In this document: positions 21,181-49,547 of the stretch, one piece after another
Layout: every line of letters begins with the position of its first letter
Numbering within the stretch: the stretch's first letter is position 1
Assembly (NCBI RefSeq): GCF_018499875.1
Contig: NZ_JAHBAY010000011.1
Location: 186,001 to 250,000, forward strand
From: Kineosporia corallincola
GTDB taxonomy: Bacteria > Actinomycetota > Actinomycetes > Actinomycetales > Kineosporiaceae
Reading direction: 5' to 3'
Length of the DNA: 64,000 nt
The notes under the pieces: generated by a model
The model's input: only the letters and a program-made list of their open reading frames with translations
The model's database searches: none
What the model was told of the DNA's origin: nothing
Made by a program: the position numbers and the translations under genes

Positions 21181-21211
21181 GAGTCGTCTCCTTCATCAGT
21201 CGATCCGTCGA

Positions 21212-27453: not shown

Positions 27454-27741
27454 CAGATCTCCTCGTGCCACCCAGGTGGATCGGTTCCGGATGGTTTGTT
27501 CTTGATCTTGCGGTCTGGTCTGATTAGCGAATCCGACTACGCAGTCGACACATCCTGATGCAGTTCGCGATCACCCGTGACGCCAACGATCTAGGCAATC
27601 CACGAAGGGTGACGATAATGCCACCTTGACGCACCTTATGCACTAATCAGGATGTGATGGTTAGGAAACGTTTGATGCACCGATTCGGGTCAGGTAAGCG
27701 ATAAGTCCTACTTGCGAGTAGTCAGAGAACCGGAGCCAGGC
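27454..27741. promoter_or_regulatory. Divergent regulatory region of the Tad locus
   Basis: 288 bp between the divergent Tad operon and the lipoprotein gene, noticeably richer in A/T than its surroundings. It contains a perfect 11-bp inverted repeat (CACATCCTGAT at 27549-27559 and its complement at 27646-27656) enclosing a second inner pair (TCACCC / GGGTGA). Promoters for both directions must lie here, but no -35/-10 pair is convincing. Confidence 0.6.
27549..27656. repeat. 11-bp inverted repeat with 86-bp spacer
   Basis: CACATCCTGAT and ATCAGGATGTG are exact complements. They could be two half-operators for a looping regulator or the outer stem of a structured leader RNA for either divergent gene. 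Confidence 0.7.
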
Positions 27742-29510: not shown

Positions 29511-31271
29511 TTATCCGAGGCGGGACGGCGCCGGGAATCCGACGTCGTCCCACCCGATCGGCCAGGCCAGCGGCTCGGCGGGCGGGGTCGGGTCGGGTCG
29601 CTGGCTGACCGTGGCCATGCGCACGGCGGCGAGCGAGCGGGAGAGGCGGTCGGCCCAGGCGCTCTCTACCAGGTCGGGCCGGACTCCGCCCAGCACAGGG
29701 GATTCCGCCCGGCGGAGGGCGATGCTGCCCTCCGAGCCGCAGAGCACGACGGCGCGGCAGAGCTCCGGCAGGGCCTGCTCCTCCTCGTCCAGGCAGATCG
29801 CGTGCACGCCGGCGTTCTCACCCTCTTCCAGCAGGGGCAGCACCCCCGGGATCCCGGACAGCCGGCGGATGCCGTCGAACACCACCAGCACCTCGGGCGA
29901 CGCGGTGACCCGCTGGCCCGGCGGCCGGCGGTGCCGCAACCGCTCGTCGACCAGGCTGCCGAGCTCCAGCAGCCTGCGCTCGATCGAGTCGTGGTCGTTG
30001 CCGATCAGCACCGACACCCCGGAGGCCTCGTCGGGGCGGGCATGAGGGAGCCGGGAGACCCATTCCCAGCGCCGCCGGGACGCGTAGTCCTGGCCCGTCA
30101 GCACCGTGATCCGCAGCTCGCGGGGGGCGTGGAAGGCCGCGCACTGGGCCACGAGCCAGCGCGCCGTGGCGTGCATGACCGCGGCCTTGCCGGTGACCCC
30201 GAGCACCCCCACGGCCTGGAGGTTCAGCGTGACCGGGACGTCGGGCAGCAACGACGGCAGGGGCTCCTGCGCCTGGGTGTGCCAGCGGGTGCGGCCGACC
30301 CGCAGCGGGGACCCGGAGTCGCGGTCGTCGATCACCGTGCGTGGTGGCTGTGGAGCCAGACCCAGCCTGAGCTGGAGCCAGTCGTCGTCGAGCGGCAGGC
30401 GCTCCCACAGCCGACGCCCCGGCCCGACCGCGGTGAGCAGCGTGAGCGCCGGGTCGGGGGTGGCCTCCCGGCGCTCCTCGGTCTCCTTGGCCAGGGCGGT
30501 CAGGATCTCCTCGCGGGCCCGCTCCCGGTCGCGCAGCCACTTGTTCAGCAGGCGCCGCTGCTCGGTGCCGGGGATGGAGCGGCCGCTCGGCGGGCGCGGC
30601 GGCAGCACGAACCGGGCCCCGCTGCGCGGCCGGGCGGACCGGGTGTGGCGGAACAGCTGCCATCCCAGCCCGGTCTCGTCGGGCTGGGTGTCGGCGTCGG
30701 GTTCGCTCACCGTGGTCAGCTCCAGCACCGTGCCCGCCGCCTGGAGGTAGGTGCCGCGCGGCCACGGGCAGCGCTCCGTCTTCTCTTCTCCGGCCAGCGT
30801 GAAACTGGTTCCGGCGCCGGGGATCACCTCGACCGCGCCGCCGGGCCGGGCGCTCAGGGTGAGCGCGTCGGCGGCCAGGTCGGCGTCGGGCAGGTCGAGA
30901 CCGGGCGCCTCGTGCCCGATGACGGTCTGCCCCAGCCCGAGCCGGTGCACCCGCCCCGCGCCCGGCCCGTTGACCACCCGGATCTCGGCGACGCCCGAGG
31001 GCCGGGTGACCGGCTGCTCCTCGTGCTCGTGCAGCTCGACGATGCTGCCCGGCCGGATGCCCGCCGAGCGCAGCGTGTCGTGCGGCTCGGCCCGGCGCCC
31101 GTCGACCCAGACCGGCACCCGCGCCGACTGGGCCACGAGCGTCTCGTCGTCCAGAGCTGCCAGCAGGTGGGGCATCAGGGCGGCCAGGTCGGAGTCGGGA
31201 TGCGCGTCGACCAGTGCCTCGGTCTGGGTGCCGGCGGCCCTGCCGTCCCGCAGTGTGACAGCGAACCTCAC
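29511..31271 (-). CDS. Truncated FtsK/EccC-like protein without motor domains
   Basis: 586 aa from the GTG at 31271 (GAGGGGG upstream); the frame is open further upstream without similarity. Residues 1-85 look like the ubiquitin-like (YukD) fold and about 95-190 like an FHA domain (GAGRVHRLGLGQTVIG). About 260-560 resembles the N-terminal FtsK/SpoIIIE region of EccC-like proteins (VTLNLQAVGVLGVTGKAAVM, ASPEVLVVFDGIRRL). In relatives this is followed by two or three ATPase domains with Walker motifs. Here the frame stops at ...FPAPSRLG, just where those should begin, and the convergent secreted-protein gene occupies the space. It is a stable half-protein or a truncation remnant. Confidence 0.7.
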   Translation of the reverse strand: MRFAVTLRDGRAAGTQTEALVDAHPDSDLAALMPHLLAALDDETLVAQSARVPVWVDGRRAEPHDTLRSAGIRPGSIVELHEHEEQPVTRPSGVAEIRVVNGPGAGRVHRLGLGQTVIGHEAPGLDLPDADLAADALTLSARPGGAVEVIPGAGTSFTLAGEEKTERCPWPRGTYLQAAGTVLELTTVSEPDADTQPDETGLGWQLFRHTRSARPRSGARFVLPPRPPSGRSIPGTEQRRLLNKWLRDRERAREEILTALAKETEERREATPDPALTLLTAVGPGRRLWERLPLDDDWLQLRLGLAPQPPRTVIDDRDSGSPLRVGRTRWHTQAQEPLPSLLPDVPVTLNLQAVGVLGVTGKAAVMHATARWLVAQCAAFHAPRELRITVLTGQDYASRRRWEWVSRLPHARPDEASGVSVLIGNDHDSIERRLLELGSLVDERLRHRRPPGQRVTASPEVLVVFDGIRRLSGIPGVLPLLEEGENAGVHAICLDEEEQALPELCRAVVLCGSEGSIALRRAESPVLGGVRPDLVESAWADRLSRSLAAVRMATVSQRPDPTPPAEPLAWPIGWDDVGFPAPSRLG

Positions 31272-31414
31272 CTGACCCCCTCGTACCCGCCGTGCGAAAG
31301 CCCGCGCCTGAGCGCCCGAATATGCCACGCCCACGCCATACGTACCAGTCTGTTCGTGTTCAGTCGGGCACAAAGGGTGGCTAAATCCAGGTAACCGCTC
31401 GATCGGGCAGCCGG

Positions 31415-31831
31415 TCAGCGCGGCGGGGCCCACAGCGAGCACTCCACCCGGATGACCGTGTCGACCACCGAGCCCAGCGCCCGTTCCAGGTCGTCGTCGG
31501 GGGCCTCGTGCCGGTCGAGCCAGAGCTGCACCGGCCGCCCGCGGAAGATGTCGTGATGCGGCTCCAGGTCGAAGTCCTCGGCCTCGAGCAGCTCCTGCCC
31601 GAGGGAGACCAGGCCCCCGGCGAGCAGGAAAGTCAGCAGTGCCCAGTCGGTCTCGGTGCCCGCCGTGAAATGTGCCGGTGGGTCGGCGAACAGCTCGGGC
31701 AGCCCGGCCCACCACAGGCCGTTGGTGTGGATCCGGCGCAACCGGCCGGGCGGCCCGGTGACCACCTCGATCCGGATCTGCGGTGGGCGCCGGGCGCCGG
31801 ACGGACTGCCGGTGGGTGCGTTGTGCATCAT
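31415..31831 (-). CDS. Hypothetical protein upstream of the EccC-like gene
   Basis: 138 aa. Start ATG-ATG with GGAAGGA 7 bases upstream. It contains RRIHTNGLWWAGLPELFADP and ends DTVIRVECSLWAPP, with no signal peptide or membrane helix. I do not recognise the family. It lies 143 bp upstream of the FtsK/EccC-like gene on the same strand, so a link to that system is possible but unproven. Confidence 0.7.
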   Translation of the reverse strand: MMHNAPTGSPSGARRPPQIRIEVVTGPPGRLRRIHTNGLWWAGLPELFADPPAHFTAGTETDWALLTFLLAGGLVSLGQELLEAEDFDLEPHHDIFRGRPVQLWLDRHEAPDDDLERALGSVVDTVIRVECSLWAPPR

Positions 31832-31952
31832 GAAAAAGTCCTTCCCCCGTGGTCTTCCACACAGACCAAGGGTGGCCTCCCGGCACCCCGACCCGCTCCC
31901 GGCGTCCCCAGAAACCGGCTCTGTGGAAAGACTCCCGGTCCTGCCGACCGCT

Positions 31953-32366
31953 CTACCCGGACAGCAACGCCACCAGCTGGTCGAGCTGCTCGCCGGTGCC
32001 CTGCTCCATCACCGGGAACATCTCGTCCGAGATCTCGCCGGTGTATCGCTGCACCAGAAGGGTCTTCGCGTCGTCCTCACTGAAGGTCACGACGACCTCG
32101 CCGCCGTCCCAGCCGTACACCAGCCGGCCCGGCGGCTCGACCGTCCGGAAGACCATCTCGGAGGGGTACTCGATCCCGTCCGGATCAATCATGGTCAGCT
32201 CGAAGGAACCGCCTTCGCGCAGGTCCAGGTTGATCTTGTGGAGGGGCGCCACCAGCTCGCCGGGAGCCCACCAGAGGGCCAGCCGCTCCGGCACCGTGTA
32301 GGCGTCCCAGACCTCGCAGCGAGGGACCCCGACCAGACGGATGAGGATCAGCTCACGAACGGCCAT
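31953..32366 (-). CDS. SRPBCC (AHSA1/START-like) domain protein
   Basis: 137 aa from the ATG at 32366. The whole protein is one SRPBCC domain: AVRELILIRLVGVPRCEVWD, PERLALWWAPGE, REGGSFELTMIDPDG and PPGRLVYGWDGGE match the AHSA1 subgroup. Such small proteins bind hydrophobic ligands or act on stress; the ligand here is unknown. An upstream extension to 32468 is open but outside the domain. It is divergent from the PhzF gene by 100 bp. Confidence 0.88.
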   Translation of the reverse strand: MAVRELILIRLVGVPRCEVWDAYTVPERLALWWAPGELVAPLHKINLDLREGGSFELTMIDPDGIEYPSEMVFRTVEPPGRLVYGWDGGEVVVTFSEDDAKTLLVQRYTGEISDEMFPVMEQGTGEQLDQLVALLSG

Positions 32367-32466
32367 CGTCCCCGCACCTCCACGTAGCGTGACGGTCAGG
32401 CTAGCGGTCCAGTGGCCGGGGACTGGCCGTGTCACGGCCGGGCCACAGGCTGGCACGGTGGCTGCC

Positions 32467-33297
32467 ATGCGCAGATTCGCTCAGGTGGACGTGTTCACCG
32501 CGCGACCCGGCCGGGGCAACCCGGTGGCAGTCGTGCTCGACGCCGAGGGGCTCCCCGACGAGGAGATGCAGCGGCTGGCGCACTGGACCAACCTGTCGGA
32601 GACCACCTTCGTGCTCCCGCCGACCCGGCCGGAGGCCGACTACCGGGTGCGCATCTTCACCCCCGACCGTGAGCTCCCGTTCGCCGGTCATCCCACGATC
32701 GGCACCTGCCAGGCGCTTTGGGACGACGGACAGCTCGGTCCCGGCCCGTCCTGGGTACAGGAGTGCGCCGCCGGGCCGGTCGAGGTGCGCCGCCTCGACG
32801 ACGGTGCCCTGGCCTTCGCCGCCCCGGCGCCGGTGCTGGTGGAACCGCTCGCCGACGAGGAGCTGCTGGCGCGGGCCCTCGGCGGGGTGCGGCCGCACCG
32901 GCCCACCCTGATCGGGATCGGCCCGGTCTGGCTGACCGGGCGGGTGACACCGGCCGAGCTGGACGCGCTCGACCTGGACGCCGCCGCCTTCCGCGAGCTC
33001 GCCGAGGTCACCCCGGACGTCACCCTGTACGCCGTGGACCAGGCCGGTGACCTGCACGTGCGCTCGTTCTTCCGGGTCGACGGCGGGATCGCCGAGGACC
33101 CGGTGTGCGGTAGCGGCAACGCCTGCGTCGCCCGGCACGTGCAGCTCACCGCCCCTGACGCCCGGCTAGACGGCGGCTACCGTGCCTTCCAGGGCCGGCA
33201 CCGGGGACGCGACGGCCGGATCACCGTGGAGCTCGGCGAGCGGAACTGGATCGGCGGCCGGGCAGTCACCGTGGTGTCCGGCACGATCGCCGTGTGA
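32467..33297 (+). CDS. PhzF family isomerase/epimerase
   Basis: 276 aa, usual length. Two-lobed PhzF fold with the catalytic Glu in NLSETTFV and the motifs GRGNPVAVVLD, LPFAGHPTIGTCQAL and GGIAEDPVCGSGNACVA. PhzF itself isomerises a phenazine precursor, but most homologues have unknown substrates and no phenazine genes are nearby. Start fixed at ATG 32467 by similarity. Confidence 0.93.
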   Translation: MRRFAQVDVFTARPGRGNPVAVVLDAEGLPDEEMQRLAHWTNLSETTFVLPPTRPEADYRVRIFTPDRELPFAGHPTIGTCQALWDDGQLGPGPSWVQECAAGPVEVRRLDDGALAFAAPAPVLVEPLADEELLARALGGVRPHRPTLIGIGPVWLTGRVTPAELDALDLDAAAFRELAEVTPDVTLYAVDQAGDLHVRSFFRVDGGIAEDPVCGSGNACVARHVQLTAPDARLDGGYRAFQGRHRGRDGRITVELGERNWIGGRAVTVVSGTIAV

Positions 33298-33490: not shown

Positions 33491-33582
33491 GTAATCGCGG
33501 GTCACGGCCTGGCCGGCCCGGTGAAATGCTCGGTGCACTCATTGCGATGACGCACCTGATCGGTGCGTCCCGGAGGACATTC

Positions 33583-34983
33583 ATGAGCTCCCTGGCATCC
33601 GACGGACCGCCCACGGGAACGGCGGGCGATCCGTCCCAGCCGGTTCTCGACCTGATTGGGGTCGGGTTCGGTCCGTCCAACCTGGCCCTCGCGATCGCGG
33701 CGGTCGAGCACAACGACCAGGCTAACGACGCGACCCGGGTGGCGGTGCGGTTCTTCGAGCGTCAGCCGGCATTCGGATGGCATCGGGGCATGCTGCTCGA
33801 CGACGCCACGATGCAGGTCTCGTTCCTCAAAGACCTGGTCACCATGCGTAACCCGGCCAGCAGCTTCAGTTTTCTGGCCTACCTGCACGAGTCCGGCCGG
33901 CTGGTCGACTTCATCAATCACAAGACGCTGTTCCCGCTGCGGGTCGAGTTCCACGCCTATCTGGAGTGGGCCGCCGCCCGGGTGGCCGACCTGGTCGACT
34001 GGGGGCACGAGGTCACCGGTCTGGTCCCGGTGACGAGTGGTGACGAGGTGATCGCGGTCGACGTGACCGCGCGCGAGCTGCGGCCCGACGGTACCGGCCG
34101 CGAGGTCACCTACCGGGCCCGCAACGTGGTGATCGGCACCGGCCTGCGACCCCGTCTGCCGGAGGGTGTCTCGGGCTCCGACCACGTCTGGCACAACCAC
34201 CACCTGCTGCACCGGGTGGAGGAGATCGACGCGGACACCGCCCGGCGGTTCGTGGTGGTCGGCGCCGGGCAGAGCGCGGCCGAGGTGACCGCCTTCCTGC
34301 ACGAGCGGTTCGCCGGTGCCGAGGTGGTCTCGGTGTTCACCCGCTACGGCTACAGCCCGGCCGACGACAGTCCTTTCGCCAACCGGATTTTCGACCCGTC
34401 CGCGGTGGACGACTTCTACGCCGCCCCGACGGGCGTCAAGAAGATGCTGATGGACTACCACGGCAACACCAACTACTCGGTCGTGGACACCGAGCTGATC
34501 GAGGAGCTCTACCGCCGCTCCTACCGGGAGAAGGTCACCGGCCGCGAACGCCTGACCATGATGAACGTGTCCCGGGTGGAGGGTGTGCGGGAGCAGCCCG
34601 GCCGGGTCACCGTCACGGTGCGCTCGCTGACCAGTGACACCACCACCGACATCGACGCCGACCTGGCGGTTTTCGCCACCGGCTACGACCCGGTCGACCC
34701 GGTGCCGCTGCTCGGCGACCTGGCCGCGTTCTGCACCCCCGAGCCGGGTGGCCGGCTGCGGGTGCGGCGTGACTACCGGGTGGAGACCACCCCGGGCATC
34801 CGCTGCGGCATCTACCTCCAGGGCGGCACCGAGCACACGCACGGGCTGTCCTCGTCGCTGCTGTCGACGATCGCGGTGCGGGCGGGAGAGATCCTGACCT
34901 CCGTGGTGAGTGGTGCCGGCCGGGCCCAGCCGGCGGGTGGCGCGAAGGCGCCCGCCGCCGCGCTGCGCCGGCTGCTGCGGTGA
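33583..34983 (+). CDS. L-lysine/L-ornithine N-hydroxylase (siderophore)
   Basis: 466 aa, ATG with GGAGGA upstream. FAD/NADPH enzyme that N-hydroxylates the side-chain amine of Lys or Ornto start a hydroxamate siderophore. FAD site IGVGFGPSNLALAIA, NADPH site VVVGAGQSAAEVTAFL, the substrate loop and the late ATGY motif (VFATGYDPVD) are all intact, as is the C-terminal EHTHGLSSSLLS. Lys versus Orn cannot be decided. No acyl- or formyl-transferase that would complete a hydroxamate is in the window. First gene after the iron box, 43 bp before the NRPS. Confidence 0.93.
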   Translation: MSSLASDGPPTGTAGDPSQPVLDLIGVGFGPSNLALAIAAVEHNDQANDATRVAVRFFERQPAFGWHRGMLLDDATMQVSFLKDLVTMRNPASSFSFLAYLHESGRLVDFINHKTLFPLRVEFHAYLEWAAARVADLVDWGHEVTGLVPVTSGDEVIAVDVTARELRPDGTGREVTYRARNVVIGTGLRPRLPEGVSGSDHVWHNHHLLHRVEEIDADTARRFVVVGAGQSAAEVTAFLHERFAGAEVVSVFTRYGYSPADDSPFANRIFDPSAVDDFYAAPTGVKKMLMDYHGNTNYSVVDTELIEELYRRSYREKVTGRERLTMMNVSRVEGVREQPGRVTVTVRSLTSDTTTDIDADLAVFATGYDPVDPVPLLGDLAAFCTPEPGGRLRVRRDYRVETTPGIRCGIYLQGGTEHTHGLSSSLLSTIAVRAGEILTSVVSGAGRAQPAGGAKAPAAALRRLLR

Positions 34984-35026
34984 ACTGACCGGTCCGACAA
35001 GCTATTTCGCAGGTGATACCCAGGTG

Positions 35027-38000
35027 ATGGAACACGTCCGGCCGGTGACCCCGCTCCAGGAGGGGTTGCTGTTCCAGGTGCTGGCCCGGCGCGAGCGCGC
35101 CGACGTGCCGGATGTACACGTCGCGCAGCTGGCCCTCGACCTGCGGGGTGCAGTGGACCCGGGGCGCTGGCGCGCGGCCGCGCAGGCCCTGCTCGACCGG
35201 CATCCGGCCCTGCGGGTGGGGTTCCGGCAGGAGACGACCGGGCGGAGCGTGGCCGTGGCGGGGGAGCACGTGGTGCTGCCCTGGCAGGAGATCGACCTGG
35301 GGCACCTGTCGGCCCAGGGCTACGGGCGGGCCGCGCTGGACCGGGAACTGGCGGCGCAGACCGAGACCGACCTGCTGCGCGGGTTCGACCCGGCCGTGGC
35401 CCCGCTGCTGCGGGCGACGCTGTACCGGCTCGGGCCCGAGTGGTACCGGCTGGTGCTCACCCATCATCGGCTGGTGCTCGGGGCGGCGTCGATGCGGGCA
35501 CTGCTCGACGAGCTGCTGGCGTCGGCCGGCGCCGCGGTGCCGGTTCCGGAGGGCTGGACCTGCGTGGGGGATCCGGTTCCGGAAGACCGGACCGGTCTGG
35601 CCGGTGGGGTTTTCGGGGACGATCCGGAGCCGGGGTTCCCGGCGTACTCCGGAGCCGGCACGCTGATCGCTTCCGGTGCCGGGCATGATCCGGCCCAGTT
35701 GCCCGAACGGCTCGGTGAGGAGCTCGATCCTGCCACCACCGCGGCGCTGGCCGCCCTGGCCCACGAAGAACTGGTGACGCCCGAAGCAGTCGTGCGCGCG
35801 GCTTGGGGAATCGTGTTGTCGGCGCTGACCGGTACACCCGACGTGGTGTTCGGCACGATGGCGACCGTACGGCCGGAGCGGACCGGGCAGGACAGGCGGG
35901 ACGGGCGGGCCGAAACCGATGCGTGTGCCCGGGTCGGGCAGTTCGGTGTCGTCGTGCCGGTGCGCCTGCGGGTGGACCCGGCCCGGCCGACGGGCGACCT
36001 GCTGCGGGAGGCCGGCGGGGCCGGTGGGGCCGCCGAGCCCGGGGCCGTTCCGCCGATGGACCAGTTGTTCGACACCATGGTCGTTTTCGCCGGGCATCCG
36101 GTGAACGCCGGGCTGCCGCGTTGGGTGGACGACGTCGAGGTGGCGGACGCCGCGGTGCGGGACTTCTCGCCCTGTCCTCTCACCCTGATCGCGACGGACA
36201 GCGAAAGGCTGCGCCTGGAGCTGGTTTTTGCTCCCGGGGCGGTGGACGCGGTGCTGGCCGGGCGGGTGCTGGCCCGGTTCACCGGTGTACTTCGGCAACT
36301 GGCGCACGCTAGTATTCCCTCGGCCGGGCGGCTCGACCTGCTCCTGGAGGGGGAGAGGGTCGAGCTGCTCGGCCCTCGCACGCTGGGTGAAAACCCCCGA
36401 AACGTGCCGTCATCCATCATCGACGTGCTGCGTGAGCAGGCCCGGCGGCACCCCGATGCGGTCGCGCTGGTCACCGAGCAGCAACGGTGGACGTACGCGG
36501 AGCTCGACGACTGGTCCGGCCGGGTGGCTGCCGGGCTGTGCAATCTGCCCGACTGGGACGGTCACATCGTCGGCCTCCAGCTCCCCCGGGCCTGGATGCT
36601 TCCCGCCGCGCTGGCCGTGCTCCGCTCCGGTGCGGCGGCCCTGCTGCTCGACGAGGCCGCGCCGGCCGAGCGGTCCTACGCCATGCTGGCCGACGCCTCG
36701 CCCACAGTGGTGGTCCGTTCGGTGGAGGAGCTCGAGAACGCCTGGTTCGCGGCGTCTTCCGAACTTCCGGCGATCATTCCCGGCAGCCCGGCCCTGGTGG
36801 TGTACACCTCGGGTTCGACCGGTGAGCCCCAGGGCGTCGTGGTGACGCAGATGGCGCTGGCCAATCTGCTCGCGAGCCATCGTCGTCATCTGATGGTGCG
36901 GTACGGCACCCGGCTGCGGCTCGGGCAGGTGCAGCCGTTCACCTCCGACGCCTTCTGGGACCAGGTGCTGTGGATGCTCGCCGGTCACCAGCTGCACGTG
37001 ATCGCCGACGACGTGCACCGCGATCCGGAAACCCTGATCACCTATCTCGACCGGCACGGCATCGACGGTATCGACCTGACCCCGACGCACCTGCGGGAGC
37101 TGATCCCGGCCGGGCTGCTCGACGCGAACGCGGGCCGGCTGAAACTGCTCACGGTGGGCGGGGAACCGCTGGACCCGGCGCTGTGGCGGCGGATCTGCGG
37201 TGAGCCCGGGCTGCGGGTGCACGACCTGTACGGCGCGGTCGAGACAACGGTGGACGCCTGGGGTCGCCTTTCCGGTCCCTCGGGACGGCGGTCGGCCTAC
37301 CGGGTGGACGGGGTGCGCACCTATCTGCTCGACGCCGCGCTCCGCCCGGTCCCCGCCGGGGTGGTCGGTGAACTGTACGTGGCCGGAGCCGGTCTCGCCC
37401 TCGGCTACCTGGACCGCCCGGCGCAGACCGCGGCCCGTTTCGTGGCCGACCCGTTCCGCCCGGGGGAGCGGATGTACCGCACCGGCGACCTGGCTCGCCG
37501 GGGGGCGGACGGCGTGCTGGAGTTCGCCGGGCGCACCGACCGGCAGCTGAAGATCCACGGCCACCGGGTGGAACCGGGTGAGATCGAGGCCGCGCTGTGC
37601 TCCCTGCCCGGGGTGGCCCAGGCCGCCGTCGTGCTGCGCGAGGGCACGCTGACCGGGTACCTGGTGCGTCGGGGCAGTGGTCTGTTCAACGGGCCGAAAC
37701 AGCCCGGTCGGCCGGGTGAGGGGGGCACCCCGGCGGAGCTCCCGCGCGAGGAGACCGCCGGGCTGCGGGAACGGCTGGAGCGGGTGCTGCCCGGCCATCT
37801 GGTCCCGGAGCGCTTCGTCCGGCTGGCCGCACTGCCCCGCACGCCCGGCGGAAAGCTGGACGTCGCCGCGCTGCCGTCACCCCCCTCGTCGCAGCCGCCC
37901 GCCGTGCCACCCCGCACCGAGCGGGAGGCGTTGCTGGCCGGGGTCTTCGCCGAGATGCTGGGGCTGGAGCGGGTCGGCATCCACGACGACTTCCTCGCTC

Positions 38001-41000
38001 TGGGCGGGCATCCGCTGCTGGTGCTGCGACTGGCCGGCCGGCTCTCGGTGGGCCTCGGGCTGAAGGTGGGGGTGCGTGACATCCTCGACGCCCCCACGGT
38101 GGAGCGCCTGGCCCGGCGGCTGCCGTACGGTGACCGGCCCAGGCTGCGGGCCGGATCGGCGCCGAACTCCCCGGAACAGACCGAGCTCTCGCCCGCTCAG
38201 CGTCGTCCCTGGTCGGACTACCGCAGGTCGGGCCCGGACGGCGGCGCCAACGTCGCGATCGCCTGGCGCCTGATCGGGCCCCTCGACGTGGCCGCGCTGG
38301 GGGCGGCGGTGGCCGATCTGGCCCGGCGCCACGACCCGCTGCGCAGCGTGGTCACCGAGCACGACGGCGTGCCTCACCTGACGGTGCGCGACGAGGTGCC
38401 GGCCCTGCGGGTGATCGAGGCCGGTGGCGCAGGACGCCCCCGCCCGGCGCAGCGCCTGGCTGCCGAGGCCCGCTACGCGTTCCGTCCGGATCGCGAGATA
38501 CCGCTGCGAGTGACCCTTTTCCGGGTGGCCGAGGACGAGCACCTGCTGCTCCTGCTGGCTCACCGGATCGCCGCCGACGAATGCTCCGACGTGCCGCTGC
38601 TGACCGACCTCTCCCGTGCCTACGCGGCGCGCACCCGGGGCGAGGAGCCGCGGTTCGCGCCGCTGCCGGTGCGCTACGCCGACTACTCCCGCTGGCAGAA
38701 CGATCTGCTGGGTGATCCGGCCGACCCGGCCAGCCCGGCCGCGCGGCAGCGGAACTACTGGAGCCGGCGGCTGGCCGGGCTGCCCGACGAAATGACGCTT
38801 CCGGCAGACCATCAGGGACCGGTCACCGGGGCGGGTGGCGCCGAGTCGTTCGCGATCGGGGCCGCCGCGGCCGGGCGCCTGCGGGGTGTGGCCGCGGCCC
38901 ACGACGTCCCGGTGTCCCTGCTGTTCCAGGCCGCGGTCGCCGTGCTACTGACGAAACTCGGTGCGGGGAATGACATCCCGCTGGTCTCGCCGGTCAGCGG
39001 ACGGCGGGACCCGGCGCTGGAGGGACTGGTCGGGTGCTTCGGGAACGCGGTGGTGCTGCGCGCCGACACCTCCGGCGATCCGCTGCTGCCCGAGCTGCTG
39101 GCGCGACTGCGCGACACCGCCCTGGCCGCCGCCGACCGTCAGGACCTGCCCTTCGACGGCCCGGCCCAGGTGATGGTGACCTACCGGGCACAGGTCCGCC
39201 GGGCGCTGGATCTGCCCGGCCTGGGCTGTCTTCCGGTGCGGGTGGAGCGCGCCACGCCCCGGGCCGACCTGTGCTTCGGTGTCGCCGATCTGGGGCCGGC
39301 CGGGATGGAGGGGCTGATCGATTACAGCGCAGACCGTTTCGACCCACTGACCGTGGCCGCCCTGGGGTCACGGCTGGTGCGGGTGCTGGAGCAGATGGCG
39401 GCGGCGCCGGGCGCCCGGCTGAGCTCGTACCACGCGCTGCTGCCCGGCGAACGCGAACGCGTCACCGGCCGCTGGGCCACCGGCGGCCCGGTCTCGATCG
39501 ACATGATGGGCCTGTCGGTGGTCGACGTGGTGGCCCAGCAGGCCCGGCTCACGCCGCACGCCACCGCGCTGGTCACCGCCGCCGGCCGGTGGAGCTTCGC
39601 CGAGCTGGAGGCCTGGACCAACCGCGCGGCCCGGGTGTTGCTGTGGGCCGGGCCGTTACGCGGCCGTCTGGTGGCGCTGCACCTGGACCGGGCCTGGATG
39701 CTGCCCGCGATCCTGGCGGTGCTGAAGACCGGTGCGGCGTACCTCTCCCCGGAACCCGGCCAGGTGCCGCCCGCGGGTGCCGAGCCGGTGCTGACCCTGG
39801 ACTCGGCCGCCCTGCTCGACGGTGGGGAGAGCGACGCCCCGCTCACCGACGCCGAACGCGGCGGCCCGCTGGTGCCCGACCTGCCGGCCTGGGTGAGCGG
39901 CACCGGCGTGGTGGTGACGCACTCCGCCCTGGTGAACCTGGCCACCTCGCACCACGCCCGGCTGATGGGCCCGGACTCCTCGCGCTGCCGGGTGGCGCAC
40001 ACCGCCTCGTTCGCGCACGCCCGCTCCTGGGAACCGGTGCTGTGGATGCTGGCCGGGCACGAACTGCACGTGATCCCGGACGGTCCCGGCCTGGTCGCCC
40101 GGCTGCGCGACGCCCGCATCGAGGTGCTCGAGGTGACGCCGGCCCAGCTGGTCCGGCTGCTGCCGGTGGGTCTGCTCGGGATCGGGCTGAGCGTGCTGCT
40201 GATCGGCGACGGCCCGGTGGATCACGATGTGTGGCAGGGGGTCTGCGCGGTGCCGGGGCTGGTGGTGCACCAGCTGTACGGCAGCGCGGAGACGTCGGTG
40301 GACGCCTACGGCTGGCACGGGTACGCCAACGGCGGGCGTGCCGCCTACCGGCTCGACGGGGTGTGCACCTATGTGCTGGACGCGTCGCTGCACCCGGTCC
40401 CGGTCGGGGTGACCGGCGATCTGTACGTGGCGGGCGCCGGGCTGGCCTACGGCTATCTCGGCCGGCCCGGGCGCACCGCTTCGTGTTTCGTGGCCGACCC
40501 GTTCCGGCCCGGGCAGCGGATGTACCGCACCGGTGACCTGGCCCGGTGGACCACCGACGGCATGCTGACCCTGGTGCGGCGCCGGGACCGGCCGCCGGTC
40601 ACGCCGCTGACCCCGGCCGCGCTGCGGCTGCTCGGGACCGGCGGGCCGATCGGCGGGTTCAGCGGTTCCGAGGTGGTCCAGCTGCCGGCCGGGGTGGATC
40701 CGGACCGGTTGCAGGCCGCCCTGCGGGCCGTGGTGGCGGCGCATCCCGCCCTGCGGACCCGGCTCACCGGCGACGGGCTGGAGCAGCCGGACCGCTGGCA
40801 GGCCCCGCTGATCCGCACGGTGCCCGCCAGAGACCAGGACCCGCAGGAGCTCTGGCGGTCGATCTCACGCCAGGCCGGGCTGGAACGCGCCCGGCTGGAC
40901 CCGCGGGAAGGGGTGATGCTGACCGCGGTCCGGTTCGACCGGGGGCCCGACCACAGCGGCCGTCTGCTGATCGTGGCGAACCAGCTCGTGGTGGATAGTG

Positions 41001-42085
41001 TTTCGTGGCACGTTCTTCTGTCCGATCTGTCTCTTGCGTATTCCCAAACCCTCTGCGGTAATATCAATCTCGTGCCGGAGGGAACTTCCTTCCGGCACTG
41101 GGCCCGGCGCCTCACCGGTCTGGCCCAGGCCCGTGGACCTGAAATGCGGCAATGGTGCAAGATTCTCACCGCTGCGCCGAGGCTCCCGGTCGATCGTGAC
41201 GTCGACCCGGTGCTCGACCGTACGACCTCCCTCCAAGAGGTCGGCCGTGAACTGCCCGTCGCGAGAACGGATCAGATCCTCCATGCCGCCCCCCTGGCGT
41301 TCGGGGTGCCGGTGTGCGAGGTTCTGCTCACGGCGCTGGCTCTCGCGGTCGGTGATCTGCGCCGGCGGCATCAGGACCGCGGGGCCGGGCAGGGTCACGG
41401 AGGGGACGCCCGCGACGAGGGGAGTGCTGGCCCCTCGTCGTCCCTCCGTGGCTCTGCCCGGCTCCGCGGTGTGCTCGTCAGCCTGACTGCCGATGGCCGC
41501 AGCACCGAAACGGCCGACACCGCCGGCACAGCCAACGGCACCAATGCTGCCGGCACCTTCGACATCTCCCGCACCGTGGGCTGTTTCACCCACACGTACC
41601 CGGCTCACCTCGATCCCGGCGACGTCGACCTGGACGATGCCCTGGCCGGAGGCCCGGCCGCGGCCCAGGCGGTGACCAACGTGGCCAAGGCCCTGGCCGA
41701 GATCCCGGACGGTGGGCTCGGTTACGGCCTGCTGCGCGAGGTGAACCGGTGCACCGCAGGCGAACTCGCCCGTCACCCGGAGCCGCAGATCGGGTTCTTC
41801 TGGGCCGGGCGCACCGACTTCCCGGCCCCCGCCGACTGGTCGCCGGCGCCGGAGTCGGAGGCCGCCGGCGCCGAGTCCCCCGTGACCCAGGCCCTGGTCG
41901 TGACCGCCCGCGTCGAGGAACGCCCCACCGGGCCGCAACTCACCGTCAGCTGGGTCTGGCCGGAGGGCGTGCTGGACGCCTCCACGGTGGAGGACCTCGC
42001 CGACACCTGGCTGCGCGCCCTCACCGCGATCGGCCGGTGCGCCGCCCGTCAGCAGACCCCCGGACCGGCCCAGGAGCAGACATGA
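35027..42085 (+). CDS. Degenerate NRPS: C*-A-T*-C*-A*-E* in one open frame
   Basis: 2352 aa from ATG 35027 (GTG at 35024 possible; AGGTGA upstream). Domains: C about 1-450 with HHRLVLG at 146-152, where the usual Asp is Leu. Adenylation 1 about 464-950 looks intact, with [11 protein letters not shown] at 593, [25 protein letters not shown] and GGKLDVA. Carrier about 965-1030 has LGGHPLL: Pro996 replaces the Ser that carries phosphopantetheine. C2 about 1050-1490 has HRIAADE at 1179-1185: the catalytic second His is Arg. Adenylation 2 about 1500-1865 lacks the P-loop ([11 protein letters not shown]) and the late GRxDxQxK and Lys motifs, and no second carrier follows. The end, about 1865-2340, is epimerase-like ([16 protein letters not shown]) but HH is replaced by Asn1985-Gln1986. 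Seven kilobases without a stop or frameshift. It is expected to be iron-regulated with its neighbours. Confidence 0.92.
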
Positions 42086-42297
42086 CCAATCCGTTCGAGC
42101 ACCCCGACGGCGAGTACCTCGTGCTGGTGAACGACGAGAACCAGCACAGTCTCTGGCCGGGATTCGTCGAGGTGCCGGCCGGCTGGCGCGCGGTCGCCGG
42201 GCCGGGCGACCGCGCGTCGTGCGTGGACTACATCGAGACCCACTGGACCGACCTGAGGCCGAGAAGCCTGGCCGAATTCATGGACCCGAAGGCCTAG
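42082..42297 (+). CDS. MbtH-like NRPS chaperone
   Basis: 71 aa, ATGA overlap with the NRPS stop. The MbtH signature is complete: [29 protein letters not shown] and a C-terminal WTDLRPRSL. These small proteins bind adenylation domains and activate them. Its preservation next to an NRPS with one apparently intact adenylation domain suggests that domain is still expressed and folded. Confidence 0.96.
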
Positions 42298-42319: not shown

Positions 42320-43411
42320 TCAGGCGCTCTCGTCCTCCACCTCGGTGGCCGGGTCGCCGTCCGCGGCCCGGGCGATCATCGGCACCAGGTTCTCGATCAG
42401 GTAGGGCACACTCAGCACGGTGGCGAACGAGGTGGCGCTGCCCAGCGTGGACTCCACACCGTCGTCCGAACCGTCGTTCAGGTACACGTCACCGCCGTTC
42501 TGGTACACGTCGAGCTTGTTGTAGAGGTTGTCGGCGGCCAGCCCGGCCTTGTCGGTCTTCGCGTTCGGCACCAGCCAGACCAGCGCGTCCACGTCGAGCA
42601 GGCCGACGCGCTCCTTGCTGATGTTCGCGCCGAACTCGCCGCCCACCGCGTCGGCCAGGCCCTTGGGCAGGGTGAGCCCCAGCGACTTCAGGAACTGACC
42701 CCGCGGGTCGTCCTCCGCGTACACGTAGTAGCCCTGGTAAAGCGTTGCCATCAGCCCGGTCTTGCCCTCCAGGCCGGGATTGGCCGAGCGGGCCGCGGCG
42801 AACTGCTCATTGACGTCGGCGACCAGCTTCTCGGCCGCCGCCGACCGGCCCACCGCCCGGCCCACGGTGGTGGTGATGACGTCCCAGGCCACCGCGTAGT
42901 CGTTGGCCCCCTCGGGAGCCGGCAGGGTGGGCGCGATCTGGCTCAGCTTGTCGTAGTCCTCTTGCGACACATCGGAATACATACCGACGATCAGATCGGG
43001 CTGGAGCGCCGCGATCTGCTCGAACTGGATGCCGTCGGTGTTGTCCAGCGAGGTGGGCAGGGCGGACCCGCCGAGCTTTTCCGTTGCCCAGGGCCAGATC
43101 TCGCCCTCGTGGCTGCCGAACCAGTGCGTGGTGGCGATCGGCACCACGCCCAGCGCCAGCAGCGCGTCCTGCTCGACCAGCCCGACCACCACCACCTTCG
43201 AGGGCGCGGCGGTGATCTCGGTGGTGCCGAACTTGTGCTCGATCGACACCGGGAAGGCGTCGGTGCTCGCGCCGTTCGTGGCGCCGCCCCCGGCGCCGGA
43301 CGAGGTGTCGTCGTCGCTGCCGCAGGCGGCCACCAGGGCGAGTCCGGCGGTGGCGAGGGTGGCGCCGAACGCCCGTCGGGACAGGACGGGCCGTGCGGAA
43401 CGCGGGGACAT
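42320..43411 (-). CDS. Fe(III)-siderophore-binding lipoprotein
   Basis: 363 aa. A signal peptide with SRRAFG (Tat-like) ends in the lipobox LVAAC. The mature part is a FepB/FecB-type periplasmic-binding fold: KVVVVGLVEQDALLALGV, the QFEQIAALQPDLIVG helix-strand unit and a C-terminal lobe. It captures ferric siderophore outside the membrane for an ABC importer. Last gene of the minus-strand iron operon; the matching permease in this window is broken, so it may use a permease encoded elsewhere. Confidence 0.92.
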   Translation of the reverse strand: MSPRSARPVLSRRAFGATLATAGLALVAACGSDDDTSSGAGGGATNGASTDAFPVSIEHKFGTTEITAAPSKVVVVGLVEQDALLALGVVPIATTHWFGSHEGEIWPWATEKLGGSALPTSLDNTDGIQFEQIAALQPDLIVGMYSDVSQEDYDKLSQIAPTLPAPEGANDYAVAWDVITTTVGRAVGRSAAAEKLVADVNEQFAAARSANPGLEGKTGLMATLYQGYYVYAEDDPRGQFLKSLGLTLPKGLADAVGGEFGANISKERVGLLDVDALVWLVPNAKTDKAGLAADNLYNKLDVYQNGGDVYLNDGSDDGVESTLGSATSFATVLSVPYLIENLVPMIARAADGDPATEVEDESA

Positions 43412-43991: not shown

Positions 43992-45401
43992 TCAGGGTTC
44001 GCGGACCAGGGGTGGCACCGGATCGGGACGCCGGTGCCGCGCGGCCAGCAGCGACCGCAGCAGGATCCCCGGCCGGGCCAGTTCCGAGGGGTGCCGGAGC
44101 ATCTGCGTCACCTCGACGAAAACCCGGTTCACCGGTGCGTCGGTCATCGAGGCCGCGACCACCCGGGCCACCAGCCACCCGGACACCCGCTGCGCCAGGG
44201 TGCGGGTGCCCGCACCGGCGGCCGCGGCGGCGTCACCCGTGGTGGAGATCGACCAGGCGGCGTCCACCACCACCCGCTGGAGATCGAGGAACGCGCGGGC
44301 CGGGACATCCAGGTCGGGCTCCGAGCGCAGGAACAACGACAGCGCGCCGGCGTGCAGCGAGGCCGAGCTGATGCCCTGCGCGTAGAGCGGGTTGAACGAC
44401 GCCACGGCGTCGCCCACCGGCACCAGCCGCGCGGGAAGCCTTTCGCACGAACAGAAGTCGCGACGCCGGCTGTCGGCCTGGCGGAAGGTGGCGACCTCGC
44501 CGAGCATCTCGCCCTCGACCGCCCGGCCGAACGGTTCCGGGTGCTCGGTGCGGCAGCGGGCCACCATGTCGGCGGCCGTGCTGCCGGGCCGGAAGTCGCC
44601 GTAGCCGCCCTGCACCACGATGAACCGGTCGTTCTCCACGGCCATCGCGATCGCCCCGCTCGCGGCGCCGCCGTACTTGGACCCGGTCAGGTTCATCGCC
44701 AGGCCGACGCCGGGTGTGCCGGGCGGGCGGCGGAAGAACGCGGTGGCGTAGTTGACCCCGGAGATCACCCGGACCATCGGCGGCCGGTCCCAGCCCGCCT
44801 CCTCCAGCCAGTCGCTCACCCGGCTGGCCCGGCCCATGGCGTCCACCACCAGGTCGGCCGGCTCCACCCCGGAGACACCAGCGGACTCGTACGTCACGGC
44901 GGTGACGGCGGTGTCGCCGAACTCCAGGCCGGTGACCCGGCCGGTCAGGCTCTTCACGTTCGGGACCGCCCGCAGCTCGGCCCGGACCAGGTCTTCCAGG
45001 AACGGCCGGGTGAGAGCCAGCCGCCGCACGTCCGCACCGTTCACCCGGGGCACGCCGTCGTCGTAGACGGCCACCCGGTCGGTGGTGACCAGGCAGGCCC
45101 CGGCCTCGATCGCGCGGTCGGTGAAGCCCGGGAACCAGCGCTCCAGGAAACCGCCCCCGGCGGCCAGCAGCACGTGAGCCTGCCCGCCCTGCGGCACCCC
45201 CTTGCGCGGCACACCGCCCTCCGGCAGCTCGTCCCGCTCCATCACCAGCACCGTGGCGGCGTGGTCGGCCAGCACCCTGGCCGCCAGCAGTCCGGCGATG
45301 CTGCCGCCCAGCACCACGGCCGTGCCCAGGCTCTTCGCCGGGGGCGTGACCGGAGGACCGGCGGAGGTGATGGCGTGGAAGGTACTGGCCGCGGTGGTCA
45401 T
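43992..45401 (-). CDS. FAD-dependent monooxygenase (group A type)
   Basis: 469 aa. The Rossmann motif GGSIAGLLAARVLADHA starts near residue 30, followed by PRKGVPQGGQAHVLLAAG and the second FAD motif with GDAVASFNPLYAQGIS. This layout is shared by aromatic hydroxylases, epoxidases of the LasC/MonCI type and geranylgeranyl reductases. The substrate is unknown; the operon suggests tailoring of a secreted iron chelator. Only six bases separate its start from the upstream transporter gene stop, so the genes are co-transcribed. Confidence 0.85.
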   Translation of the reverse strand: MTTAASTFHAITSAGPPVTPPAKSLGTAVVLGGSIAGLLAARVLADHAATVLVMERDELPEGGVPRKGVPQGGQAHVLLAAGGGFLERWFPGFTDRAIEAGACLVTTDRVAVYDDGVPRVNGADVRRLALTRPFLEDLVRAELRAVPNVKSLTGRVTGLEFGDTAVTAVTYESAGVSGVEPADLVVDAMGRASRVSDWLEEAGWDRPPMVRVISGVNYATAFFRRPPGTPGVGLAMNLTGSKYGGAASGAIAMAVENDRFIVVQGGYGDFRPGSTAADMVARCRTEHPEPFGRAVEGEMLGEVATFRQADSRRRDFCSCERLPARLVPVGDAVASFNPLYAQGISSASLHAGALSLFLRSEPDLDVPARAFLDLQRVVVDAAWSISTTGDAAAAAGAGTRTLAQRVSGWLVARVVAASMTDAPVNRVFVEVTQMLRHPSELARPGILLRSLLAARHRRPDPVPPLVREP

Positions 45402-45407
45402 GTCCGA

Positions 45408-47258
45408 TTATTGCCAGTTGCCGGAATTTCCGGGCGGCTGCGAGCCGGATTTGCCCGAAGGTCCCGGCGATTCCTCCGGCACCTCCTTCGACGCATCCCT
45501 CGACGCATCCCTCGACCAGGCCCGCCACAGTCCGGCGTAGATACCCCCGGCCGCCACCAGCTCGTCGTGCGTACCGTGCTCGTCGATCCGCCCGGCCCGC
45601 ATCACCACCACCCGGTCGGCACTCGCGGCCTGGGTCAGGCGGTGGGCCACGACCAGCGCGGTCCGCCCGGAGAGTGCCCGTTGGGCAGCGCTTTCCAGCA
45701 CCCGGGCGCCGGCGCTGCCGGCCTCGGCGGTGGCCTCGTCGAGGATCGCCACCGGCGGATCGGCCAGCACCAGCCGGGCCAGGGCCAGCTGCTGGGCCTG
45801 CGCCGCGGTCAGCGCGTGGCCGCCGTCGCCGACCACCGTGTTCAGTCCCTCGGGCAGCCGCCGCACCCAGTCCAGGGCGTGCACCTGGTCCAGGGCGGCC
45901 TCCAGCTCGGCCGGCGAGGCGCCGGGCCGGGCCAGCCGCAGGTCGTCGGCCAGCGGCCCGGCGAACACGTGCACCTCCTGGGTGACCAGGGCGACGGTGC
46001 GGCGCACGGTGCCGGGGCCGAGCCCGGTGACGTCCGCGCCGCCGAGCCGGATGGTCCCGGAGCCCGGCGGGTGGAAACCCGCGATCAGCTTGACCAGCGT
46101 GCTCTTCCCGGCGCCGCTGGCCCCGACCACGGCCACCCGGTGCCCGGCCGGGATGTCCAGGTCGACGCCGGTGAGCACCGGGTGACCGTCGACGTAGGAG
46201 TGCCCCACCTGCTCCACCGTCACCGAGGCCCCGGTGATCGCGGGGCCGGAACCGACCGGGGGAGAGGGGATGTCGACCACCCCGACGAGCCGTGCCAGGC
46301 TGGCCGTGGCCGACTGCGCCTCGTCCAGCAGGAACAGGGCGGTGTTGACCGGCGTGAACAGGCCGTGGAAGTAGAAGGCGGCGGCCGACGCCGTGCCGAT
46401 CGACACCTCACCGGTGCGCACCAGCACGAAACCCGTGACCAGCACCCCGGACAGGCCGATGAACTCGGCCAGGTTCAGCCGCCCGAAGAAGCCGGTCTGG
46501 AGCACCACCCCGTCGAGCGAGCGGCCGACCGTGCGGGACGACGCCGCCGCGACCCGGGGCAGCTGCCGCCCGGTCAGCCGGAAGGCCCGCACCGTGCGGG
46601 CGTTGCCGATCGTCTCCAGCAGCTGTTGCTGCTGCTCGCCGGTCGCCACTCGTTGCTCCGCGTAGACCCGCCCGGCCCGGCGCAGGTACCAGCGCACGGT
46701 CAGCGCCTGCACCGGCGCGGCGAGCAGCGCCACCAGCAGGAAGCGCGGGTCGAGCACCCCGAGCGCGGCCAGGGTGAGCACGACCGTCAGCCCGGAACGG
46801 GCGAATTCGGGAACCGCCTCGCGCACACCCTCGCTGATCTTGGCGACGTCGTTGGTCACCCGGGAGGTCAGATCGCCCGAACCGGCCCGCTCCAGGTCGC
46901 CGGCCGGAAGCCGTAAGGCCTTCTCCACGAAGCGTTCCCGCAGCTCGGCCAGCGCGGACTCACCCGCCAGGGCCAGCTGGGCCATGCCGATCGGGGTGAG
47001 CAGCCCCTGCACCAGCGCCACCAGGGCGATGCCGGCCGCGGGCAGCACCAGGCCGGACGGCTCGCCGCCGGTGGCCACCACGTCGACGATCCGGCCGAGC
47101 AACGGCGAGCTGAGCAGCCCGGCCACCGTGGCCAGCACCAGCACCACCACGCCGGACAGGGCGGGCACCCGTTGCGGGCGGACCAGCTCGCGCAGCATCT
47201 GCCGGCAGCGCGCCGGGGTGGCGATCGGCAGACGGTAATCCGTTGCGGCAGAGGTCAT
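45408..47258 (-). CDS. ABC exporter half-transporter (canonical Walker A)
   Basis: 616 aa, one six-helix membrane domain (about 30-320) fused to an ATPase domain. Walker A is GASGAGKSTLVKLIAG; Walker B ends PPVAILDEATAEAG. The signature is LTAAQ instead of LSGGQ. Start overlaps the preceding stop (ATGA). With its partner it forms a heterodimer in which its Walker A pairs with the partner's intact LSGGQ. The context suggests siderophore export. The 28 C-terminal residues are Pro/Ser/Gly-rich and disordered. Confidence 0.9.
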   Translation of the reverse strand: MTSAATDYRLPIATPARCRQMLRELVRPQRVPALSGVVVLVLATVAGLLSSPLLGRIVDVVATGGEPSGLVLPAAGIALVALVQGLLTPIGMAQLALAGESALAELRERFVEKALRLPAGDLERAGSGDLTSRVTNDVAKISEGVREAVPEFARSGLTVVLTLAALGVLDPRFLLVALLAAPVQALTVRWYLRRAGRVYAEQRVATGEQQQQLLETIGNARTVRAFRLTGRQLPRVAAASSRTVGRSLDGVVLQTGFFGRLNLAEFIGLSGVLVTGFVLVRTGEVSIGTASAAAFYFHGLFTPVNTALFLLDEAQSATASLARLVGVVDIPSPPVGSGPAITGASVTVEQVGHSYVDGHPVLTGVDLDIPAGHRVAVVGASGAGKSTLVKLIAGFHPPGSGTIRLGGADVTGLGPGTVRRTVALVTQEVHVFAGPLADDLRLARPGASPAELEAALDQVHALDWVRRLPEGLNTVVGDGGHALTAAQAQQLALARLVLADPPVAILDEATAEAGSAGARVLESAAQRALSGRTALVVAHRLTQAASADRVVVMRAGRIDEHGTHDELVAAGGIYAGLWRAWSRDASRDASKEVPEESPGPSGKSGSQPPGNSGNWQ

Positions 47259-49033: not shown

Positions 49034-49034
49034 A

Positions 49035-49053
49035 TGAAGTAAGGCTAACCTAA
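49035..49053. promoter_or_regulatory. IdeR/DmdR iron box, bidirectional
   Basis: Read on the plus strand, 16 of 19 positions match TTAGGTTAGGCTAACCTAA, with the downstream half (AGGCTAACCTAA) perfect. Possible -10 elements face both ways inside it: TAGCCT on the minus strand and TAACCT on the plus strand (49046-49051). It would therefore control the exporter operon and the import genes together. Confidence 0.88.
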
Positions 49054-49118
49054 TGGTCTCGGGCGCGGCCGTGCCCTGCTGGATGCTGCCCGGTTCGTGA
49101 GTTCGTGAGGAGGACCAG

Positions 49119-49543
49119 ATGACCGCAGCAGCCGACGTCCCGGTCGAGTCCCGCGACCTGGGCTCGCGCTGTGGCAGGGCCGGCCCCTGAACCTGCTCTC
49201 GCTCGGCGACGAGACCGCCACCGCGCTGGGCGTTCCGGTGGAACGCACCCGTGGCGTGCTGTTCGCCTGCGCCGTGGCGCTGGCCGCGATCGCCACCTCG
49301 GCTGCCGGGCCGATCTCGTTCGTCGCCCTGGTCGCGCCGCAACTGGCCCTGCGGGTCACCCGCACCGCGGGGGCCGGGCCGGCCGGTGCCGCGGCGATGG
49401 GGGCGCTGCTGCTGGTGGTGAGCGACGGGGTGGCCCAGCGGGCGCTGCCCACCGGCCCGGTGCCGGCGGGCATCACCACCGGTCTGCTCGGCGGGGCGTA
49501 TCTGTGCTGGTTGCTGGTCCATGAATGGCGGAAAGGTCGTTGA
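49119..49543 (+). pseudogene. FecCD-type siderophore permease remnant
   Basis: A start with a good ribosome-binding site (GAGGAGGA, ATG 49119) opens a frame of 23 residues that ends at TGA 49190. In another frame, from about 49163 to 49543, lies the C-terminal third of a FecCD permease: LNLLSLGDETATALGV, ATSAAGPISFVALVAPQLA and a C-terminal WLLVHEW. The start belongs to a permease gene while the body is the end of one, so an internal deletion has fused them out of frame, removing roughly two permease genes' worth of coding. Translation from GTG 49238 could yield about 101 aa, but with too few membrane helices to form a channel. Confidence 0.85.
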
Positions 49544-49547
49544 TCGC

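Follow-up and report, generated by a model that had tools for sequence, protein, structure and literature searches.

A cut-down, fused non-ribosomal peptide synthetase frame in Kineosporia corallincola with altered catalytic motifs and a conserved protein sequence

Introduction

Inactive domains have been described in several peptide assembly lines. The glycopeptide X-domain is an inactive condensation domain with the motif HRxxxDE that is able to dock an oxygenase (PMC6565677, PMC8949500); the first of these papers gives HRxxxDE for the kistamicin X-domain and says the same of the teicoplanin X-domain. Inactive adenylation domains can be trans-complemented by stand-alone adenylation–carrier (A–T) proteins, as in albicidin and others (PMC8949500). 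Here, we analysed an open reading frame (ORF) of the non-ribosomal peptide synthetase (NRPS) type at positions 35027–42085 of a 64,000-nt stretch of Kineosporia corallincola (contig NZ_JAHBAY010000011.1, positions 186,001–250,000; hereafter the window). The comparison set consisted of six genomes of the soil-dwelling genus Kineosporia, namely that of the window (G000) and five same-genus relatives (G001–G005).

We favour, tentatively, the view that this ORF is a cut-down, fused, pseudoenzyme-like remnant, of which the fold has been selected while the chemistry was given up domain by domain, the first adenylation domain (A1) and the MbtH partner being the last. Simple recent decay does not account for the pattern, and neither does a working NRPS. 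Among the open-literature papers listed, none reported a Kineosporia NRPS remnant or a selected inactive NRPS, as judged by titles and the openings of abstracts.

Domains and catalytic motifs of the synthetase

An uninterrupted frame runs from GTG 34910 to 42085, with ATG 35027 as the likely start and a predicted protein of about 250 kDa. It contains condensation (C), adenylation (A), carrier (T) and terminal epimerase-like (E) domains, arranged as follows.

35027–42085, plus strand: cut-down, fused NRPS remnant, C1-A1-T1-C2-A2core-E
35033–36391, plus strand: C1 condensation domain, HRLVLGA at 35465–35485, inactive by motif
36410–37861, plus strand: A1 adenylation domain, PQG in 36803–36838, YGAVET at 37229–37246, A10 Lys kept
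37934–38122, plus strand: T1 carrier domain, Ser to Pro, codon CCG at 38012–38014
38162–39466, plus strand: C2 condensation domain, HRIAADE at 38561–38581
39494–40561, plus strand: A2 core, lacking both the P-loop and the C-terminal subdomain
40550–40600, plus strand: approximate fusion junction between the NRPS2 A2 core and the NRPS3 terminal E domain
40598–42046, plus strand: terminal E domain, NQLVVDS at 40979–40999

The NRPS descent of these domains was upheld by Pfam and Protein Data Bank matches and by about 58% identity to the synthetases of G003. Most of an initial annotation of the locus was borne out. The sole carrier domain (PF00550, residues 970–1032) reads GGHPLL, with Pro for the phosphopantetheine Ser required of a functional NRPS, and no overlooked second carrier was detected in the ORF by Pfam. 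Both condensation motifs are altered, as had been claimed: C1 departs from HHxxxDG at its second His and at both Asp and Gly, and the second His, needed in a functional NRPS, is missing from both C1 and C2. The expected place of the A2 P-loop, said to be lacking, is occupied by WVSGTGVVV (39884–39916), and A2 terminates shortly past the A7 motif, i.e. before A10, with the C-terminal subdomain and a second carrier absent. Likewise, Asn-Gln stands for the His pair in the terminal epimerase-like domain, no stop or frameshift was found in the frame, and the MbtH partner (42082–42297) appears intact. What did not survive was the description of A1 as intact: its P-loop has Gln for the invariant Lys (PKG to PQG) and its A5 motif has Ala-Val for Pro-Thr (YGPTE to YGAVE), so that neither A1 nor A2 of the window has the full A3/A5/A10 core motifs of functional adenylation. 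AlphaFold models of A1–T1 and A2–E (four sequences each) were too poor (mean pLDDT 49.5 and 38.5) and were not used.

Peptide building by the window protein is, for practical purposes, excluded, because the carrier Ser, the His residues and the P-loop are missing. The protein might still work as an NRPS if carrier, adenylation and condensation activities were supplied in trans. Trans-complementation of inactive A domains is known (PMC8949500), and 21 of the 25 condensation-domain matches of the genome lie outside this ORF. However, alterations affect the carrier Ser, A2, E and the second His in C1 as well as in C2, so that nearly every step would need replacing, and we consider this explanation very unlikely.

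Comparison with the uncut synthetases

An A1 query matched all six Kineosporia genomes searched. A wider scan of a contig database gave 26 loci, three of them from Kineosporia and the remaining 23 at 23–43% identity. Of the six genomes, only G003 carries an uncut NRPS set, the other five, including K. corallincola, being cut down. The G003 set comprises NRPS1, NRPS2 (3511 amino acids, aa) and NRPS3, whose open frame spans up to 3647 aa, followed by MbtH. Window residues 1–1854 match residues 8–1869 of G003 NRPS2 at 58.6% identity, window residues 1844–2343 match the end of G003 NRPS3 at 58.3% identity, and NRPS1 is missing between the monooxygenase gene and the NRPS in K. corallincola. The same fusion is present in G002. 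In G001 and G004, the NRPS ends at the same A2 position and most of E is lost, the break point DG[VM]L being common to G000, G001, G002 and G004. G005 retains only a 768-aa piece containing A1, with no MbtH at the locus. An assembly or sequencing artefact might be suspected in K. corallincola, of which the assembly is an 8.2 Mb draft of 53 contigs, but the same junction and similar losses occur in separate genomes, making an artefact hardly credible.

By eye, NRPS1 of G003 is A-MT-T-E. It is broken in the E domain (L019:7342–12146) at GEP and PTQEA repeats, giving frames of 1320 and 236 aa, and this interruption is either real or a sequencing error.

When the window was searched by tblastn with the G003 domains, the synthetase was matched in the ORF's own frame only; beyond these there were two reverse-strand matches, one at a palindrome and a weak one at another place. 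This search gave no sign of compensated frameshifts in the ORF. Out-of-frame pieces of the E domain were found in G004 and G005 at the end of the NRPS ORFs, at or running into the region of the hairpin described below.

Shared and private losses

The initial annotation had held that orthologues with normal Ser and His residues would mark this copy as a strain-specific decay. This holds for the carrier, where Ser is normal in all four relatives that keep the domain (G001–G004) and Pro is found only in K. corallincola, but not for the C1 His, the A2 P-loop and the E His, which are altered in the cut-down copies and normal only in G003. The second His of C1 is Gln in G001 and G004 and Arg in G002 and the window, i.e. 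altered in all four cut-down copies with the motif region. The A2 P-loop is gone in 4/4 reduced copies, with gap lengths that differ between copies, and the second His of E is lost in both reduced copies that retain its motif region. In C2, the second His is lost in three of four reduced copies: HRxxxDE is found in the window, G002 and G004, HHLAADD in G001 and HHVAADE in G003. As for A1 elsewhere, G001 reads PRA, the A10 Lys is changed to Glu in G002 and G005, and the motifs of G004 are intact. Strain-specific decay as the entire account was rejected: save for the Ser to Pro change and those in A1, the losses mostly recur in relatives.

The loss of catalytic residues was then compared with that of other residues, using as reference the columns that do not vary across the paralogous domains within G003, i.e. 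seven A domains, and six C/E domains of NRPS2 and NRPS3 (two others there and that of NRPS1 were left out). All P values of this comparison are optimistic, because the rows are related by descent. For A2, 43/84 motif cells were altered versus 59/312 other invariant cells (P = 1.4e-8); in the window A2 itself, the changes among family-invariant columns hit 10/21 in the motifs versus 15/78 outside them (P = 0.012). The second His of the C/E domains was altered in 9/10 reduced domains (8/9 when the change shared by C1 of G001 and G004 was collapsed) versus 89/410 other invariant cells (P = 1.2e-5). The direction was opposite for A1 across the family, with 13/190 motif cells altered versus 75/460 (P = 0.001). 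For A1 of the window alone, motif columns fared no better than the others (5/38 versus 14/92). Pooled over lineages, C1, C2, A2 and E fit, on statistical grounds, a pseudoenzyme pattern, in which catalytic residues are lost and the rest remains under selection; A1 of the family, of which the motifs are the better-kept part, does not. The motif counts support the proposal that A1 still acts for the family, but not for the window copy.

Selection on the protein

One-ratio (M0) codon models gave omega (dN/dS) values of 0.20 for C1, 0.12 for A1, 0.11 for T1, 0.17 for C2, 0.15 for A2 and 0.27 for E, and omega = 1 was rejected for all six domains (2dlnL 107–828). Among the NRPS domains, G005 was included only in A1, and E was represented by three rows; the branch models add the partial C1 of G005. 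Five neighbouring control genes, namely those for the monooxygenase, the binding protein, PhzF and MbtH and one that we take to be YqjF-like, gave omega of 0.08–0.10, with omega = 1 rejected for each. On the window branch, omega was 0.11–0.24 and omega = 1 was rejected in 6/6 domains (2dlnL 9.0–50.1), and also for the C1 part shared with G005 (omega 0.36).

Evidence for purifying selection on dead domains that does not rest on the root comes from the sister species G001 and G004, both of which are cut down and have HQ as their dead C1 motif: on their terminal branches, which postdate these losses, omega was 0.18 and 0.14 for C1, 0.15 and 0.11 for C2, and 0.26 and 0.10 for A2, respectively, and omega = 1 was rejected (2dlnL 12.0–64.1). 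On the branches of G002 and G005, which share the loss of the A10 Lys, A1 gave omega of 0.13 and 0.20 (2dlnL 19.8 and 8.2), and the C1 part kept by G005 gave 0.33 on the G005 branch.

In simulations of the window branch (A1 and C2 only, four replicates per scenario), omega was 0.08–0.17 under full constraint and 0.23–0.45 when the last fifth of the branch was neutral, the observed 0.19 and 0.20 falling between the two. Protein identity to G003 also agreed with the constrained scenario. These results suggest that the neutral share of the window branch is well under 20%, the estimator being rough because its upper bound was reached in some neutral C2 replicates and full neutrality in A1 gave 0.77–0.95. 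Under a simple mutation model, about 46–128 stops are expected on a neutral branch, versus zero in the ORF. Third codon positions were the most divergent in every listed pair and domain. The 28 gap runs relative to G003 were not used as evidence, since a protein-derived codon alignment makes gaps multiples of three. The ORF shows none of the marks of a neutral pseudogene (dN/dS near 1, stops, frameshifts). Plain recent decay, one of the readings first proposed for this locus, is unlikely, because the codon models reject omega = 1 both per domain and on the branch and the simulations leave so small a neutral share.

Slow decay and the timing of the deletion

The ORF could instead be a slowly dying relic. 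In that case, the deletion would have been followed by loss of catalysis, the pathway would have become dispensable because of another siderophore, and the conserved sequence would be owed mostly to constraint that preceded each loss or to weak constraint afterwards. Each reduced lineage has private losses, and G005 is already down to its short fragment. An IucA/IucC gene pair, which could supply a second siderophore, is present in all six Kineosporia genomes; this pair alone does not explain the cut, because the uncut G003 has it too. A1 has evolved faster in the window (omega 0.186 versus 0.110, 2dlnL 5.5) and more slowly on the G003 branch (0.065 versus 0.132 elsewhere, 2dlnL 8.3), as relaxation would give. 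Against slow decay, neither stops nor frame changes were found in the ORFs of 1821–2406 codons in four genomes, the losses in the dead domains are concentrated in catalytic residues, and omega is well below 1 on the terminal branches of G001, G004, G002 and G005 after the shared losses, with the exception of the G002 C1 part and of T1 in G004. We regard this relic as possible but doubtful.

Several results weigh against the selected remnant that we favour. The A1 rates just given are among them, as are the two exceptions: omega = 1 was not rejected for the C1 part kept by G005 on the G002 branch (omega 0.43, 2dlnL 3.0) or for T1 on the G004 branch (2dlnL 2.7). All omega values are rough, because dS is near saturation on long branches. 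The other points concern when the cut occurred. The window junction differs slightly from the others (DGMLT versus DGVLQ/E, about one codon). G003 clusters with G002/G005 in the monooxygenase tree (84–100%), and the rpoB protein tree places G003 with G000, G001 and G004 at 90%, excluding G002/G005. If these trees are right, there was either more than one cut or a return to the uncut form, and the loss in the window lineage could be later than assumed. In G003, similar letters flank both ends of the deleted segment; given these and the junction difference, the deletion in the window lineage may have been independent. An independent late deletion would mean that earlier selection explains part of the window signal, and this is the main weakness of the selected remnant.

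The remaining trees bear on the same question. G001 and G004 are sisters with support of 99–100 in the monooxygenase, A1 and C2–A2 trees, 82 for C1, and 98 and 59 for rpoB DNA and protein, respectively. The rpoB DNA tree does not resolve the placement of G003, and paralogue-rooted A-domain trees place it outside the cut-down copies with support of only 65% and 69%. From the shared junction and these rooted trees, one deletion is favoured; its timing in the K. corallincola lineage is uncertain.

The conserved hairpin and the C–A linker

Within the coding sequence of the E domain lies a further element.

41379–41467, plus strand: conserved 89-nt hairpin in the E-domain coding sequence, one locus per genome

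This hairpin is near-perfect (z of −7.8 for a 111-nt stretch folded as DNA). In the window, G002 and G003, it is read in frame. It follows the NRPS stop and precedes mbtH in G001 and G004, and in G005 it starts where the NRPS fragment is just ending, the surrounding E-domain sequence being gone in G001, G004 and G005. The six copies align with no internal gaps (mean column identity 86%), and pairing is kept in 206/210 pair cells; both partners are changed in 6/35 pairs versus 2.3 in shuffles. A dispersed repeat was rejected, as the hairpin was found at this locus only in 6/6 Kineosporia genomes and in 0/32 other genomes (11 matches in the six genomes, including five that hit the same places on the opposite strand). 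A known RNA family was also rejected: eight Rfam matches up to an E value of 5, mostly microRNA, included none at the gathering score. One exact pattern gave no match in viral contigs when a phage origin was sought. As a guess, the hairpin serves in processing or control of the mbtH transcript. Palindromic elements of Rickettsia are palindromes of about 100 nt that lie in frame in coding genes. The Kineosporia hairpin resembles them as an in-frame palindrome of about 100 nt in a coding gene, but it occupies one locus per genome, is conserved in the genus and is kept when the surrounding coding sequence is deleted.

Selection might therefore act on nucleic acid or on expression coupling rather than on the protein, with the hairpin, possible internal promoters and the stop–start overlap with mbtH keeping the ORF open. 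The presence of the hairpin in all six genomes, even without the E domain, and the overlap of the NRPS stop with the mbtH start agree with this, as does synonymous conservation, for which only the C–A linker (P = 0.02) and the hairpin (P = 0.04) exceed the gene-wide 5% level. In contrast, constraint on the amino acids is spread over each of the six domains, well away from these elements, and G001 and G004 keep the ORF without the stop–start overlap; we find this explanation distinctly improbable.

The linker (36323–36358, plus strand) adjoins a box resembling TAGTAT/TACTAT by eye and may be an internal promoter; candidates for internal promoters were likewise seen by eye in G001 and G004, though not established.

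Neighbouring genes

The NRPS locus sits in a siderophore neighbourhood with the following genes.

32341–33297, plus strand: PhzF-family protein, with a similar gene near the monooxygenase in G001, G003 and G004
33526–34983, plus strand: Lys/Orn N-monooxygenase (MbtG/KtzI-like) upstream of the NRPS, PF13434 361 bits
42082–42297, plus strand: MbtH-like protein, start overlapping the NRPS stop, omega 0.087
42320–43411, minus strand: siderophore-type periplasmic binding protein, PF01497 80.6 bits

The best solved match of the monooxygenase was MbtG (9nns, 584.8 bits), and its aa identity to the five relatives is 79–84% (omega 0.079). X-domains recruit a P450 to a carrier-bound peptide; no P450 was matched among 20 neighbouring ORFs scanned with Pfam. 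Beyond the binding protein (43992–49549, minus strand) comes a protein with very weak, below-cut-off matches of flavin-monooxygenase type, then two ABC transporter genes. An oxidoreductase-like gene pair stands beside the locus in both G002 and G005 (L024:11231–14890). Farther upstream in the window, on the minus strand, are TadE, two T2SSF and SAF-domain proteins that may form a Tad pilus cluster (20118–27471) and a 791-aa protein with a partial match to EccC of type VII secretion (29511–31886; 112 bits against a cut-off of 509).

Discussion

The ORF would derive from a multi-synthetase line for an N-hydroxy-amino-acid siderophore, as its cut-down, fused remnant. Comparison with G003 shows that the loss of about 14 kb (G003 coordinates) left the NRPS2 A2 core fused to the E domain that ends NRPS3. 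This probably took place once, in an ancestor of the cut-down species, a point disputed by one tree. On statistical grounds, purifying selection has maintained the fold since then, while the chemistry of C1, C2, A2 and E was given up. Conservation of the A1 motifs in the family and retention of MbtH suggest that T1 and the A1–MbtH pair were the last part selected for activity. In K. corallincola, even A1–T1 would have been relaxed, through the P-loop and A5 changes and the replacement of Ser by Pro. The present protein is most likely a non-catalytic, or at most an amino-acid-binding or adenylating, scaffold beside MbtH and the N-hydroxylase, and its conserved sequence suggests that it retains some job other than peptide building. 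A giant pseudoenzyme, a folded C-A-T-C-A-E scaffold with active sites disarmed in several lineages, in which A1 and MbtH bind an amino acid, the dead C domains, C2 with its X-domain-like HRxxxDE among them, dock the N-hydroxylase and the hairpin controls mbtH or transcript processing, is an unlikely elaboration.

Assembly-line genes are usually classed either as pseudogenes or as working genes. Across this genus, selection on the fold seems to be separate from selection on catalysis. The six species form a graded natural series for what an NRPS protein may do without making a peptide. The hairpin is a separate, testable element. Genome mining could miscount such a locus as a peptide-making cluster.

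Compared with trans-complemented A-domain systems, the window likewise has one better conserved A domain next to a dead one, but its carrier Ser is lost and no partner line has been identified. With the glycopeptide X-domain, C2 shares HRxxxDE, and an oxygenase gene adjoins the NRPS. It differs in that C2 is closest to ordinary condensation domains and is not in the final PCP-X position (PCP, peptidyl carrier protein), and the DE part also stands beside an intact His pair in G003 (HHVAADE). A true X-domain was rejected for C2, since 5u89 (268 bits) and the PCP–C didomain 7kvw (218 bits) scored above 4tx2 (184 bits), which, with 6m7l, we take to be an X-domain. The relation is an analogy of mechanism and not membership, because the best matches are not X-domains. 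Finally, relative to the uncut siderophore NRPS of G003 (NRPS2/NRPS3), the window is without about 14 kb and NRPS1 and has lost the carrier, C, A2 and E motifs, but it preserves the order monooxygenase–NRPS–MbtH–binding protein and about 58% identity in the retained part.

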